64,000 nt of DNA, from assembly GCA_903929885.1 (NCBI GenBank), contig CAIYWI010000075.1, forward strand, positions 1-64,000, read 5' to 3'. The position numbers and the translations under genes are program-made. How positions within the stretch are numbered: the stretch's first letter is position 1; every line of letters starts with the position of its first letter. Source of the DNA: an uncultured Phycisphaerales bacterium (lineage in GTDB: Bacteria; Planctomycetota; Phycisphaerae; Phycisphaerales; UBA1924). Below the pieces are notes generated by a model. The model had not been told where the DNA came from. It made no database searches and saw nothing but the letters and a program-made list of their open reading frames with translations. This document shows positions 15,714 to 20,882 of the stretch, piece after piece.

Positions 15714-16085
15714 TCACGAGCCAAGCAGGTTCTCGAGGCCCGGCAGGCCCTCGATGCCCAGGGCGCGGGATTCCTCCTCGACCGCCTCCTTCATCGCGAA
15801 CTGGGCGCGACGAAGCCCTTCGTTGACCGCCTCCGCGATCAACGCGCCCGCGAGGGCTCGCGTGCGAGGGTCGGCGTTCATCCCCTGCACGAGCCCCGGA
15901 GCCAACTCCACCTCCAGCACCTTCATCGTGCCGCTGACCACCACGCGGGCCGCCCCCGCGCCCGCCTCGCCGATCACGCGAGTGGCCTCCATCTTCGCCT
16001 TGACCCGATCGGCGGCTTCCCTGAGCTTTTCCTTGTTCTTGAGCAGGCCAGCGATGGCGCCCAGCGACTTGATTTGATCGAACAT
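15714..16085 (-). CDS. ybaB: YbaB/EbfC-family nucleoid-associated protein
   Basis: This 123-residue protein matches the YbaB/EbfC family in length and pattern. There is an N-terminal helix (KEKLREAADRVKAKMEATRVIGEAGAGAARVVVSG), the central beta hairpin and a C-terminal helix (RALAGALIAEAVNEGLRRAQFAMKEAVEEES). YbaB dimers bind DNA as tweezers and are usually encoded directly after dnaX. Here it starts 49 bp after the -1-frame stop of dnaX, which supports the extended form of that gene. A GAGGAG motif nine bases before the ATG gives a good ribosome site. Confidence 0.88.
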   Translation of the reverse strand: MFDQIKSLGAIAGLLKNKEKLREAADRVKAKMEATRVIGEAGAGAARVVVSGTMKVLEVELAPGLVQGMNADPRTRALAGALIAEAVNEGLRRAQFAMKEAVEEESRALGIEGLPGLENLLGS

Positions 16086-16134: not shown

Positions 16135-17510
16135 TCACGAGTCGCGGCGGACGCGGGGTTGCACCGTCACCACCCGCGCGCCGAACAGTTCCATCGTCTG
16201 CTTCACGAGCGGGTGCTCGGAGATGGCCGCCGCGTCGGCCGGCGTCGCCGGCGGCGGCGACACGGGACGTGGCGGCGGCGTGGGGACCGGGGCCGGGGCC
16301 GCAGGCTGCGTCGCCGCGGGGGCGGGCAGCGACCGGGGCGACGGGGAAGGCGGGAGCGCCGCCTTCGCCGTTGCCGCCGGCGGAGCGCCGGCCGTCAGGC
16401 TTTTTTTGGCGAGGGGGCCCCCGAGATGATCGCCGCCGCATCGGCGAGTTTGTCCGTGATCGCCATGCGCACCAGCGCGGCGTCGAAGATGGCCCGCGGC
16501 ACGCTGCTGCTCTTGGCCGACCGTTGCACGTTCTCGCACAGGGCGATCATGTGCACCAGCGCCGCGGGCTCGAAAGGAGCCGCGAGGGCCGACTCTCTCG
16601 CCCGCGTGTCGGGGCTGGCCTCCACCAGCGAGGTCTGCTCGCCGCAGACCTTCAGCACGAGCAGGTCTCGAAGGCGAAGGAGCATCGCCTCGAGGCACTG
16701 ATCGATGCTCACGCCCTTGGCGATGAGCTCTCGCCCGCGATCGAGCGCCTTGGCGGCGTCGCCCTGCGAGAAGGCCTTGATCATCTCGGAGACCAACTCG
16801 CGGCTCGGCAGGCCGAGCAGTTGCTCGAGGGTCTCCGCCGTCAGCTTCTTCTGTCCGCAGGCCAGGAGGCGGTCGGCGATCGAGAGCGCATCGCGCATGG
16901 AGCCGTTGCCCTGGCGAGCGACGGCCTCGACGAGTTCGGGATCCGCCTCGACGCCCTCCTCCTTGAAGACATGCGCCAGGTGCTTGGCGATCATGTCCGC
17001 GGGGATGGCGCGGAACTCGAAGCGCTGGCAGCGGCTCTGGATGGTCGCGGGCACCTTGTGCTGGTCGGTGGTGCACAGGATGAACACCACGTGCTCGGGC
17101 GGCTCCTCCATGGTCTTGAGCAGCGCGTTGAACGCGCTGGTCGAGAGCATGTGCACCTCGTCGATGATGAAGACCTTGTACTTGCCCCGCATCGGGCGAT
17201 AGCCGCAACTGGCGATGAGCTCGCGGGCGTCGTCGACGCCCGTGTTGCTCGCCGCGTCGATCTCGATGACGTCGGTGTCCTGCCCTCGCATGATGGCATC
17301 GTCGATCTCCGGCGTGCCGCCGTTGATCGCCTTGGCGAAGAGCCGAGCCGACGTGGTCTTGCCCACGCCGCGAGTGCCGACGAAGAGATACGCATGCGCG
17401 ACGCGATTGGTCTTGATCGCGTTGAGGAGCGTCCGCGTGATGGCGTCCTGGCCGATCACCTCTTCGAACTGCCTCGAGCGATACCGGCGTGCGAGAACGG
17501 TGTAAGCCAT
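16135..17510 (-). CDS. dnaX: DNA polymerase III subunit tau (dnaX), full-length product by -1 frameshift
   Basis: DnaX is the clamp-loader ATPase. Zero frame encodes GTRGVGKTTS (Walker A, residues 45-54), the IEIDAASN segment, YKVFIIDEVHML (Walker B), the Arg-finger region IQSRCQRFEF, and domain III. Zero frame stops at 16395. In the -1 frame, entered at the A7 run (16401-16407 on the plus strand), translation continues to 16137: a Pro/Ala-rich linker, then HPLVKQTMELFGARVVTVQPR, which resembles the C-terminal element I recall from planctomycete DnaX proteins. The shifted product would have 458 residues. The usual four-Cys zinc module after Walker A is missing (see findings). An upstream extension to 17690 is not credible. 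Confidence 0.8.
16376..16407 (-). promoter_or_regulatory. Programmed -1 frameshift signal in dnaX (A7 slippery run plus hairpin)
   Basis: In the sense (minus) strand the zero-frame codons are CCA AAA AAA GCC TGA. This places a perfect X XXY YYZ-type heptamer A AAA AAA at 16401-16407. After an 8-nt spacer (16393-16400) comes a perfect 7-bp stem GCCGGCG/CGCCGGC with a 3-nt loop (16376-16392). Slippery run, spacer and stem-loop are the three classical elements of -1 frameshifting. A run of seven A could also promote transcriptional slippage. Confidence 0.75.
16395..17510 (-). CDS. dnaX: DNA polymerase III subunit gamma-like (dnaX zero-frame product)
   Basis: Read without frameshifting, dnaX gives a 371-residue protein ending SGAPSPKKA, two codons after the A7 run. 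It keeps AAA+ domains I-III of the clamp loader but lacks the linker and C-terminal element of the -1 product. This corresponds to the gamma form made by frameshifting in Escherichia coli. Whether both forms are made here is inferred from the signal, not shown. Confidence 0.65.
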   Translation of the reverse strand: MAYTVLARRYRSRQFEEVIGQDAITRTLLNAIKTNRVAHAYLFVGTRGVGKTTSARLFAKAINGGTPEIDDAIMRGQDTDVIEIDAASNTGVDDARELIASCGYRPMRGKYKVFIIDEVHMLSTSAFNALLKTMEEPPEHVVFILCTTDQHKVPATIQSRCQRFEFRAIPADMIAKHLAHVFKEEGVEADPELVEAVARQGNGSMRDALSIADRLLACGQKKLTAETLEQLLGLPSRELVSEMIKAFSQGDAAKALDRGRELIAKGVSIDQCLEAMLLRLRDLLVLKVCGEQTSLVEASPDTRARESALAAPFEPAALVHMIALCENVQRSAKSSSVPRAIFDAALVRMAITDKLADAAAIISGAPSPKKA

Positions 17511-17646: not shown

Positions 17647-17952
17647 TCAGGCCATCGGCTGGCGGGGCGCCGCGGCCGGGTCGACGGCATCCTCGCGACT
17701 CACGCGACGCTCCTGCCCGTCGGTGATCGGCGCGTGATACTGACGCTCATGCTCGGGGAGGTTGCCGCGACGCGACGCGGCCTGATCGATCTCGTCGTCG
17801 ACGCCCTTGAGCCCCTTCTTGAACTCGACGATGCCCTTGCCCAGGCTCTTGCCCACTTCGGGCAAACGCTTGCCGAAGATGAGCAGGCCCAGCACGAGGA
17901 TGAGCATCCACTCCCAAGGCCCCAAGTTGCCGATGAATGCAAGCGTGTTCAT
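17647..17952 (-). CDS. tatA: Twin-arginine translocase subunit TatA/TatE
   Basis: The 101-residue protein has the TatA layout. A short N-terminal membrane helix (WEWMLILVLGLLIFG) is followed by the conserved FGKRLPEVGKSLGKGIVEFKKGLKG hinge and amphipathic helix, then a charged, disordered tail. TatA forms the pore for folded proteins with RR signal peptides. A likely client in this window is the phosphoesterase at 52116-53093. TatC was not seen here. A terminator follows 48 bp downstream, so it appears monocistronic. Confidence 0.9.
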   Translation of the reverse strand: MNTLAFIGNLGPWEWMLILVLGLLIFGKRLPEVGKSLGKGIVEFKKGLKGVDDEIDQAASRRGNLPEHERQYHAPITDGQERRVSREDAVDPAAAPRQPMA

Positions 17953-18072
17953 GTCAGTTCTTTCGGCTCAGGTCGTTCGCGAGCCAGGCTCGACTCCGAC
18001 GAGTTCGAGGCCAGATCCTCGCGGAGGCTCCCTCGCGTCCGGAGAATGGTAGGCCTTCCCCCCTTCGGTCGT

Positions 18073-18816
18073 TCACGTGCCGCGGGTGTGCCCGAACAGG
18101 TCGATGTGCAGCCGGGCGCAGTATCGGTACCCCCGCCGAACGCACGCCTGCACCAGCCATTGCCGCGTCGCGGCGGACGGCGGCGTCACGCCTTCGGGCA
18201 TCAGCAGCACGTCCGATGGCCGCCATCCCCGCAACAGGCCCAGCAGTTCCTCGATCTCCACGAGGTCCGGTTCGCTCGACACCACGAACTTGAGCTGGAA
18301 GTCGGGCGAGCGGTCGATCAGCGACTGGATCGCCGGGGGGTTGATCCGTCGCTGCTCATGGAGCGCTCGCCACGATCCCGACGGGTCCCGCGGGTCGCCC
18401 GGCAGGGGCGTCGAGTCCGAGAGCTTCGGACTGATGCTCATGAGGTCGCACGGCAGTTCCCGGAACAAGGTGCCCGCGGTCTCGATCGTGATGTGGATCG
18501 ACCTCGCTCGCAGCAGGTGGGCCAGGCGGTCGAGCGACGGGAACATCATCGGCTCGCCGCCCGTCAACACCGCGTGGCGAGCGCCGCTGGCCGTCACCTC
18601 ATCCACCAGTTCCTCCACCGACCGGATCGTCCGCTCGGGCGACCAACTCGCAAAGGGCGTGTCGCACCAGCGACATCGCAGGTTGCAGCCGCTCGTCCTG
18701 ATGAAGAATGACGGCACCCCCGTCAACTTCCCCTCGCCCTGCACCGACAGGAACGTCTCGGAGATCGGAAGCGTGGCGGGAGTCGGGGAGGCGATGGGCA
18801 ACATGGAGTTCGTCAT
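18073..18816 (-). CDS. queE: 7-carboxy-7-deazaguanine synthase (radical SAM)
   Basis: The 247-residue protein is a QueE-type radical SAM enzyme. It has the typical N-terminus ISETFLSVQGEGKLTGVPSFFIRTSG and the 4Fe-4S motif CNLRCRWC. VLTGGEPM is the GGE SAM-binding motif. It converts 6-carboxy-tetrahydropterin to 7-carboxy-7-deazaguanine on the way to queuosine/preQ1. No other que gene is in the window. It is followed 51 bp upstream by trmB in the same direction, so two tRNA-modification functions lie side by side. Confidence 0.9.
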   Translation of the reverse strand: MTNSMLPIASPTPATLPISETFLSVQGEGKLTGVPSFFIRTSGCNLRCRWCDTPFASWSPERTIRSVEELVDEVTASGARHAVLTGGEPMMFPSLDRLAHLLRARSIHITIETAGTLFRELPCDLMSISPKLSDSTPLPGDPRDPSGSWRALHEQRRINPPAIQSLIDRSPDFQLKFVVSSEPDLVEIEELLGLLRGWRPSDVLLMPEGVTPPSAATRQWLVQACVRRGYRYCARLHIDLFGHTRGT

Positions 18817-18867
18817 GGGTCGTGTCAGCAGGGGTGCGAGGCGTCAAGGTCGAGCGACGCCTGAAGG

Positions 18868-19656
18868 TCACTGCTTCCGAAGCACCACCGAGTGCGGCGG
18901 TCGATCGTCCTTGCGGAACTTCCGCTCGTAGTTCGTCCCCACCAGTTCGCCCTCGCCCACCCATGGCGGCGGCACGAAGGCCTCGGCCTTGAACGGGGCC
19001 AGACCCGGCGCGGCCGTCGGCAGTATGGCGACCGGAGGCACGGGTTGGTGCTCCGGGCCGGCCTTCCAACGGCCCTCGCGCCACGCCGCCCACGCCGCCG
19101 GGTCGGTCCAGATGGCAACGTGCGCCTCGTCCCACGCCCACAACTCGTCGTGGTCGGTGACCACCCGCAACTCGCCGCCGGGGGCCAGCACGCGCCACGC
19201 CTCGGCCAGGAAGCGGTGCTGCACCACGCGATTCTTGTGGTGCTTGCGCTTGGGCCACGGGTCGGAGAAGTAGAGATGAATGACCGACGCGATGCCCCCC
19301 TGGCACCGCCACCGCAGGAACTCGGCGGCGTCGGTTCGCAGCATCCGCACGTTGGCCAGATGGGCTCGACGCACCCGGTCGGCCGCGTAGAGGTAGAACT
19401 CCCTCGCCCACTCGATGCCCAGGAAGTTGGTCGCGGGATTGGCCTTGGCGGTCTCGAGGATGAACGTGCCCTTGCCGCAGCCGATCTCGATCTCGAAGCG
19501 GCGGCCGGGATCCGCGAACCAGCGACGCGGATCAAGCCGTCCCGCCAGCGGATCGGCCATCGCCTCGTCGGGCAGCGCCGGCAGTTCGGCGTCCGTCACG
19601 CCGATGACGCCCGGGGCGTCGTCGAGGTCGCGTCCATGTCCAAGTCCGAATCCCAT
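18868..19656 (-). CDS. trmB: tRNA (guanine-N7-)-methyltransferase
   Basis: The 262-residue protein is TrmB. It has the SAM-binding motif EIEIGCGKGTFIL, FLGIEWAREFYLYA, and the family signature HLYFSDPWPKRKHHKNR followed by VVQHRFLAEAWRVLAPGGELRVVTDH. It forms m7G46 in the tRNA variable loop. The C-terminal part (about residues 175-262) is longer than in the Escherichia coli enzyme, with a Pro-rich insertion before NYERKFRKD. Its start is 62 bp from the divergent aroC start, so the two share a small promoter region. Confidence 0.92.
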   Translation of the reverse strand: MGFGLGHGRDLDDAPGVIGVTDAELPALPDEAMADPLAGRLDPRRWFADPGRRFEIEIGCGKGTFILETAKANPATNFLGIEWAREFYLYAADRVRRAHLANVRMLRTDAAEFLRWRCQGGIASVIHLYFSDPWPKRKHHKNRVVQHRFLAEAWRVLAPGGELRVVTDHDELWAWDEAHVAIWTDPAAWAAWREGRWKAGPEHQPVPPVAILPTAAPGLAPFKAEAFVPPPWVGEGELVGTNYERKFRKDDRPPHSVVLRKQ

Positions 19657-19718
19657 GACCCCAAGCGTACGGTGCCGCCCCGCCGGGGCGGTTGGTCCGC
19701 GTTCCTACGCTTGAGGCG

Positions 19719-20882
19719 ATGTCGCTTCACTATCAGACCGCCGGAGAATCGCACGGCCCGGGCATGGTCGCCACCGTCTGCGGTCTTCCCGCCGGCACCC
19801 CCGTCGACGAGGCCTTCATCAACGGCGAGCTGACGCGCCGGCAGGGCGGTTACGGCCGGGGCGGCCGCCAGCACATCGAGTCCGATCGCATCGAGATCCT
19901 CACGGGCGTGCGTCGCGGCTTGGCCATCGGCTCGCCGGTGACGATGCTCATCCGCAATCGCGACTCCCGACTCGACGATCTCGAACGCACGCCCCCCGTC
20001 CACAGGCCGCGGCCGGGTCACGCCGACCTCGCCGGCAGCATCAAGTACCTGACCGACGATTGCCGCGAAACGCTCGAGCGGGCCAGCGCGAGGGAAACCG
20101 TCGCGAGAGTGGCCGCCGGGGCGCTCGCCCGGTGCCTCCTCCGCGAGTTCGGCATCGACTCCTTTGGCATGGTGCGGGCCATCGGCGGTCACGCGACAGC
20201 CGCGGCCGTCGACGAATCCGCCATCTCGTCGCTCGCGGCGCTTCGCGACGCGAGCGACACCTACTGCCCCGATCCCGACGCAACGCAGCGGCAGGTCAAG
20301 GCCATCCACGACGCCAAGCTCGCCAAGGACACGCTCGGTGGCATCGTCGAAGCCCATGTCTTCGGCTGTCCGCCCGGTCTGGGCTCGTGCATGGATTGGC
20401 GCGACCGCCTCGACGCTCGCCTTGCCGGCGCGGTCATGGGCATTCAGGCCATCAAGGGCGTCGAGATCGGCCTCGGCTTTGACGCCGCCTCGCGCCCGGG
20501 CAGTCGCGTGCACGACCCCATCGAGTTCGATGCCTCGCGTCGCGAGTCGCACCATGCGTTGGGCTTCGTGCGGCCAAGCAACAACGCCGGCGGCACCGAA
20601 GGGGGCATGACCACCGGGCAACCCGTGGTGGTCCGGGCCGCCATGAAGCCCATCGCCACCATCGGACAAGGGCTCCCCAGCGTCGACCTGCGCACGCGAG
20701 AACCCGAGCGAAGCCAACACGAACGCAGCGACATCTGCGCCGTCGCCGCCGCCAGCGTCGTCGTGGAGAACGTCTGCTGCTTCGAGATCGCCCGCGTGCT
20801 GCGGGAGAAATTCTCGGGAGATTCGCTCCGCGAAATGCGATTGCAGCATCAGGCCTTCGTCGCCGCCGCTCGCACGCGCTGA
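19719..20882 (+). CDS. aroC: Chorismate synthase
   Basis: The 387-residue protein is chorismate synthase, the last step of the shikimate pathway (EPSP to chorismate, FMN-dependent). The signature stretches are GESHGPGMVATV, the RRQGGYGRGGRQ-type loop, RPRPGHADLAGSIKY, RASARETVARVAAG and NNAGGTEGGMTTGQP. A GAGG motif just before the ATG at 19719 fixes the start; an upstream ATG at 19692 is unlikely. Shikimate kinase and phosphoribosylanthranilate isomerase lie at 56-57 kb, unlinked to this gene. Confidence 0.95.
   Translation: MSLHYQTAGESHGPGMVATVCGLPAGTPVDEAFINGELTRRQGGYGRGGRQHIESDRIEILTGVRRGLAIGSPVTMLIRNRDSRLDDLERTPPVHRPRPGHADLAGSIKYLTDDCRETLERASARETVARVAAGALARCLLREFGIDSFGMVRAIGGHATAAAVDESAISSLAALRDASDTYCPDPDATQRQVKAIHDAKLAKDTLGGIVEAHVFGCPPGLGSCMDWRDRLDARLAGAVMGIQAIKGVEIGLGFDAASRPGSRVHDPIEFDASRRESHHALGFVRPSNNAGGTEGGMTTGQPVVVRAAMKPIATIGQGLPSVDLRTREPERSQHERSDICAVAAASVVVENVCCFEIARVLREKFSGDSLREMRLQHQAFVAAARTR

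Follow-up and report, generated by a model that had tools for sequence, protein, structure and literature searches.

The 64-kb window, the whole stretch of DNA analysed here (G+C content 68%), contains a dnaX gene on its minus strand. The zero frame (16395-17510) encodes a gamma-like product of 371 residues with the C-terminus PSPKKA. Pfam analysis reports PF13177 (residues 21-168), PF22608 (residues 174-220), and PF12169 (residues 223-360), and the NCBIfam model TIGR02397 (dnaX_nterm) is matched with an E-value of 7e-116. The clamp-loader AAA+ ATPase, the lid, and domain III, as expected of a dnaX gamma/tau gene, are all present. Since domain III ends at residue 360, the frame breaks just past the gamma-type core. 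At this point lies a run of seven adenines (A7; 16401-16407, minus strand), the sole A or T run of at least seven in the window. It is read in the register CCA AAA AAA GCC TGA, forming a slippery heptamer A_AAA_AAA, and the zero-frame TGA (16395-16397, minus strand), one codon past the slip site, ends gamma. The -1 frame (16135-16401, minus strand) reads SLTAG and onward past the second slipped AAA, and adds 88 residues before its TGA at 16137-16135; the shifted product would have a length of 458 residues. An earlier note on this DNA had correctly described the heptamer with its nearby stop and the sizes of the gamma-like and tau-like products; it also had the -1 frame open past the run, which is so, but gave it 87 codons. 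The -1 frame tail comprises a conserved C-terminal peptide, HPLVKQTMELFGARVVTVQPR (16153-16215, minus strand), and similar peptides lie near the -1 frame end in many relatives. A Pfam search of the 88 residues returns no match. A profile of the tau C-terminus, built from 50 single-frame genes with runs of nine or more adenines (A9+) in which tau is encoded without recoding, matches the -1 frame (E-value 1.7e-7) and none of the other frames, in agreement with the earlier impression of a genuine DnaX C-terminus. Downstream of dnaX, the ORF ybaB/ebfC (15714-16085, minus strand) matches TIGR00103 with an E-value of 1.6e-9 and 37.8 bits, under the curated cut-off of 49.45. The 49 bp reported between the stop of the -1 frame and the ybaB start (16085) are reproduced. 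The segment upstream of dnaX (17647-20882) carries what we take, by the look of the translations, to be tatA, queE, trmB, and aroC.

Two candidate stimulators flank the run. The first is a Shine-Dalgarno-like GGGGG (16418-16422, minus strand), 11-15 nt upstream, whose computed pairing with the anti-Shine-Dalgarno sequence amounts to -8.6 kcal/mol, ranking 29th among 137 heptamer loci. Judged by this pairing energy, the element may act as the upstream Shine-Dalgarno stimulator found in the E. coli type of dnaX. A search of the focal draft genome for 16S rRNA returned nothing, and the anti-Shine-Dalgarno sequence was therefore read in relatives, where ACCTCCTT ends the 16S rRNA in six out of six. 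The second is a 7-bp hairpin (GCCGGCG-CTC-CGCCGGC; 16376-16392, minus strand), predicted by the minimum-energy fold of the 60 nt downstream and present, with the loop CTC and 8 nt past the run, as the earlier note had it. Compared with dinucleotide shuffles, this hairpin taken alone is modest, and weak at some lengths (z of -1.8, +0.5, -2.4, and -2.9 for 35, 45, 60, and 80 nt, respectively), and the convincing evidence is comparative. An Rfam search of positions 16200-16600 returned five matches, each under its gathering score. The earlier note mentions neither the upstream element nor the G_GGA_AAA and C_CCA_AAA variants, and it does not cover the A9-A12 runs that form the background in the order and class or the prior reports of tau-by-recoding dnaX genes described below.

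The family to which the genome belongs was sampled through 150 genomes, 149 of them with a match, from 74 genera. The dnaX locus was read in 130. The other 20 genomes were omitted since their match was missing, incomplete, located at a contig end, or far down the list; one locus (L131) stops before the site, leaving 129 readable loci. A heptamer in register, a short zero frame, and a gene continuing in the -1 frame occur together in 121 of these, with A7 or A8 at 103 sites, G_GGA_AAA at 16, and C_CCA_AAA at two. Here and below, a zero frame counts as "short" if it encodes fewer than 470 residues, a definition that includes at least two A9+ genes with a tau zero frame (L160 and L230) and the contig-cut L229. 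Within the focal genus, A7 and a stop one codon later are present in all four genomes (L002, L003, L004, and L114). The contig of L114 breaks off right past the stop codon, so that its tail is out of view. Despite this contig end and an N gap, the locus was included in the counts of sites, Shine-Dalgarno-like elements, and layouts, but excluded from the tree and from the tail-profile, tail-substitution, and codon-phase and stop counts. The codon phase is identical in 112 out of 112 A7 runs of the whole heptamer set, and the X_XXY_YYZ pattern expected of -1 programmed frameshifting thus stands in zero-frame register at the frame junction and is conserved across relatives. The zero-frame stop follows 0 or 1 codon past the site in 121 of the 131 short heptamer loci of all families, and G occupies position +8 past the slip site in 96% of 123 family heptamer loci.

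The layout is absent in eight of the 129 family loci. A heptamer lies within a single long frame in L108 (A7) and L056 (A8), A9 occurs within a single long frame at five loci, and A6 in a long frame of L115, whose assembly is apparently indel-ridden. L115 (genome G108, one contig, 86% complete) shows a frame of 704 residues through A6 with an end resembling YbaB, and apparent indels compared with its relatives around the site; it looks like an uncorrected long-read assembly and was set apart as a probable indel assembly. The earlier note had regarded close relatives with a single frame and A6 or A8 as evidence against recoding: there are none in the genus, and elsewhere in the family they are few (L056 with A8, L115 with A6).

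Comparison of heptamer loci with A9+ loci reveals that both stimulators are enriched at heptamers. The pairing with the anti-Shine-Dalgarno sequence peaks in an 8-nt window whose 3' edge lies 6-7 nt before the heptamer, and averages -6.06 kcal/mol at 137 heptamer loci versus -1.77 kcal/mol at 83 A9+ loci. It is stronger than in synonymous-codon shuffles at 114 of the 137 heptamer loci (p 6.5e-18) and 37 of the 83 A9+ loci (p 0.41), these p-values, like that of the hairpin test, counting related loci as independent. Regarding the hairpin, the 50 nt past the site are compared with dinucleotide shuffles and yield a mean z of -1.72 at heptamers (n=134) and -0.16 at A9+ sites (n=83; p 2.6e-13), and control windows further downstream of heptamers yield -0.22 and 0.05 (n=129 each). 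In 64 of 134 heptamer loci the first helix begins at a spacer of 6 nt, and in 20 at one of 7 nt, a downstream structure at a short fixed spacer being present across these loci; the focal stem lies at 8 nt. In 86 of 134 loci (64%), the 6-nt arm at spacer 7 is complementary to a stretch of its own downstream sequence, versus 23% with swapped arms, spacer 7 being the best of 11 tried (spacers 6 and 8 give 52% and 53%); at A9+ loci the values are 5% (own) and 6% (swapped). With fixed cut-offs, the Shine-Dalgarno-like element is found at 119 of 136 heptamer loci (17 without) versus 27 of 83 A9+ loci, and a perfect 6-bp stem at 100 of 134 (34 without) versus 22 of 83. The 14 heptamer loci outside the family, which belong to three other families, have the former in 11 cases and the stem in 12. 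The earlier note had proposed to look in relatives for A7, stop, and hairpin kept together; the genus keeps run and stop in four out of four genomes, and the hairpin is enriched at heptamers in general. Once relatedness is removed, eight supported independent contrasts are left, of which 4.7 (Shine-Dalgarno) and 4.9 (hairpin) go in the expected direction and 0.4 and 0.3 in the opposite one (median sign-test p 0.125 each).

Outside the family, 66 of 112 order genomes and 34 of 164 class genomes were hand-picked, partly favouring short open frames, and the proportions among these 100 loci are not population estimates: 78 carry A9-A12 at the same place (A10 in 63), 14 carry heptamers, and the remaining eight have neither site type, are cut short, or were dropped. 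In three loci (L232, L233, and L234) the contig ends before the site is visible. The A9-A12 runs occupy codon phases 0, 1, and 2 in 12, 50, and 21 loci. The occurrence of A9+ runs in all phases, with the tau tail in the 0, -1, or +1 frame, is as expected if the run slips in RNA polymerase, and by analogy with the Thermus precedent (as reported in PMC1088944) the A9-A12 runs may act in this way.

A tree of 228 DnaX N-termini (FastTree), on which changes are undirected, requires a minimum of 11 changes between heptamer and A9+ among the 219 genes with a state, compared with a mean of 67.3 and a lowest value of 60 in 20 label shuffles. Changes among A7, G_GGA, and C_CCA sites also number at least 11, and those between short and long zero frames at least 32 (470-residue cut-off). 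Given undirected changes, eight contrasts, and a median p of 0.125, the association of the stimulators with heptamers is consistent but not proven by independent origins. A heptamer lies inside one long frame in L163, L167, L177, L108, and L056, the -1 frame stopping after 2-12 codons; these five genes have the polarity of E. coli dnaX within the same class. An in-frame G_GGA_AAG at codon 369 of L165, a single-frame gene from another family of the order, looks unlike a gamma site, its Shine-Dalgarno-like pairing being +0.4 kcal/mol and its -1 frame staying open for at least 50 codons. The A8 near codon 413 of the 460-residue frame of L247 is doubtful and was dropped from the heptamer set.

A separate trait of these proteins concerns the cysteine-rich zinc module, which the focal DnaX does not possess (corresponding region 17230-17370, minus strand). 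The module, scored as at least four cysteines in the expected stretch, is found in 0 of 180 DnaX of the order and in 33 of 34 from the rest of the class, a count that leaves out 14 order loci whose match starts past the module region. An ancestor near the base of the order may have lost it.

The final base of the heptamer is A in 136 out of 136 counted, which for A7 is true by definition, and no isolated in-frame A_AAA_AAG occurs at codons 340-480 of the loci read. The best slip sites in E. coli are reported to be C_CCA_AAG, G_GGA_AAG, and A_AAA_AAG (PMC4066793). The sites described here belong to the same three X classes (A, G, and C), but end in AAA. The same source reports G_GGA_AAA as inefficient in E. 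coli (PMC4066793), which counts against a frameshift reading. According to a review, E. coli has a single tRNA-Lys (PMC5009743). In the focal genome tRNA-Lys(UUU) appears once and tRNA-Lys(CUU) twice among the 30 of 47 tRNA matches listed. The latter is present in 16 of 16 relatives, A9+ genomes included, and UUU in five of five; since CUU also occurs in A9+ genomes, it does not separate the site types. If a CUU tRNA reads AAG firmly, the UUU tRNA would be left in the A site by AAA alone, an idea compatible with these data rather than proven by them. Two unrelated genomes with an in-frame A_AAA_AAG in a long dnaX frame, L325 (a Desulfuromonadales MAG) and L300 (a Deltaproteobacteria MAG), have one tRNA-Lys(UUU) and no CUU among the 30 of 80 tRNA matches listed. 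In L325, GGGAGG stands upstream of the site, as in E. coli. For the class as a whole, it seems likely that the two-product output of dnaX has been held constant and its decoding repeatedly exchanged between RNA-polymerase slippage (A9-A12) and ribosomal -1 frameshifting (X_XXA_AAA with Shine-Dalgarno-like element and hairpin), that the product needing the shift flips too, and that tRNA-Lys(CUU) would lead to avoidance of A_AAA_AAG and to heptamers ending in AAA.

We are confident that the focal gene would produce tau by programmed -1 ribosomal frameshifting and gamma by normal decoding. Ribosomes staying in frame at CCA AAA AAA would stop one codon on and release gamma, composed of domains I-III. 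In the others, pairing of the upstream Shine-Dalgarno-like sequence with the 16S anti-Shine-Dalgarno and the G+C-rich hairpin would hold the ribosome, and the two lysyl-tRNAs would re-pair one base back in the -1 frame. Tau would then be completed with a proline/alanine-rich linker and the conserved peptide at its C-terminus, which presumably makes the contact with polymerase alpha. Evidence for -1 ribosomal frameshifting, which the earlier note had proposed, comes from the non-homopolymer sites, from the invariant register and direction, and from both ribosomal stimulators; heptamer and early stop occur in four of four genomes of the genus and 121 of 129 loci of the family. The occurrence of both polarities at the same kind of site (131 short and five long frames) suggests an efficiency not far from one half, and the frameshift probably reaches tens of percent.

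Tau could alternatively arise by transcriptional slippage, in which the polymerase adds or drops an A and the altered mRNA is translated normally. This is how Thermus dnaX is reported to work, on a run of nine A (PMC1088944), and it has in its favour the A9-A12 found at the site in 78 of 100 loci outside the family; A7 itself might slip slightly. We nevertheless consider it unlikely. The G_GGA_AAA and C_CCA_AAA sites, free of any long homopolymer, argue against transcriptional slippage and against sequencing error alike: the 16 and two family loci concerned have no more than four consecutive identical bases in the heptamer and an unchanged layout. The tail frame also differs between the site types. 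The tau C-terminal profile matches the -1 frame in 109 of the 131 short heptamer loci and the other frames in none, so that all 109 matched loci agree; the 22 loci that return no match comprise eight that are contig-cut and 14 that are not. In contrast, the 33 short A9+ loci are mixed, the profile being matched in the -1 frame in 24, in the +1 frame in five, in the zero frame in two, and in none in two. The enrichment of ribosomal stimulators at heptamers likewise favours the ribosome over the polymerase.

In 27 close pairs, tail substitutions at codon positions 1, 2, and 3 number 539, 395, and 1203, compared with 972, 595, and 2837 in the core, and from this third-position excess the tail behaves as coding in the -1 frame; the comparison used those tail codons that passed an alignability filter, a choice that biases the distant pairs towards conserved stretches but retains almost all codons in the closest ones. 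Tails of short heptamer genes measure 61-252 codons (median 175), and 30 of 123 are under 125 codons. The focal tail, composed of the proline/alanine linker and the C-terminal peptide, is thus without much of the content of longer tails. This variability, together with many linkers that align poorly, might suggest that gamma is the only product and the tail a decaying remnant. The third-position excess and the tau C-terminus recognisable in 109 of 131 short heptamer loci make this very improbable. The least probable account is an error of sequencing or assembly, with a true run of A8 and a gene in one frame: homopolymers are error-prone, the focal genome is a draft of 170 contigs, and the family member L056 does have A8 and a single frame, but the layout recurs in 121 of 129 loci of different genomes, some of one contig (e.g., G039 and G070), and is shared by sites that contain no homopolymer, which excludes error as the explanation for the family.

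The programmed -1 frameshift deduced for this gene differs in several aspects from known dnaX systems. E. coli dnaX likewise yields two products with a shared N-terminus from an X_XXY_YYZ site with an upstream Shine-Dalgarno sequence and a downstream stem-loop. There, however, tau is in frame and gamma arises by the shift at A_AAA_AAG, with an efficiency of about 50%, while here the shorter product, gamma, is read in the zero frame and tau would require the shift. Thermus thermophilus also obtains two products from one gene with a poly-A site and is resembled by the A9-A12 loci of the sister families. The focal gene differs in its seven A, fixed register, Shine-Dalgarno-like element, and hairpin, and neither its A7 nor the G_GGA_AAA and C_CCA_AAA of its relatives attains the homopolymer of at least nine typical of Thermus. 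The closest counterparts are two-ORF dnaX genes, in which recoding is needed for tau and the zero-frame stop comes right past the site; the focal gene has such a stop and a tau tail in the other frame. Antonov et al. (2013) report 17 dnaX genes from 12 genera that make tau by recoding; nine of the genes have A10, and transcriptional realignment is the mechanism that the authors favour (PMC3711429). Their table includes two planctomycete genomes among 1106, and none is known to be named in the dnaX cluster (PMC3711429). Atkins et al. (2016) describe tau from frameshifting, with the gamma stop directly past the site, as much less widespread among bacteria than the E. coli type, their example being Chlorobium phaeobacteroides (PMC5009743). 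Given these two reports, the reversed polarity is not new. The known two-ORF genes have mostly A10, while those described here have A7 or a non-homopolymer heptamer, are enriched in both stimulators, and are near-fixed in a planctomycete family. In the open-access literature searched, we found no paper on dnaX recoding in planctomycetes. What looks new is the near-fixation in this clade, a ribosomal cassette combined with reversed polarity, slip sites that turn over, the minimum of 11 inferred changes between the site types among 219 sampled genes, and the juxtaposition with A9-A12.

Annotation by the zero frame would record gamma only in these genomes. The sister clades offer matched natural pairs in which putative polymerase slippage can be compared with ribosomal slippage at one and the same site in dnaX. 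Whether gamma is needed beyond a few model bacteria is an unsettled question, and one review states that most other bacteria keep no dnaX frameshift signatures and may lack gamma (PMC3290774). That this class apparently keeps the two products while changing the way in which they are produced argues that both are under selection.
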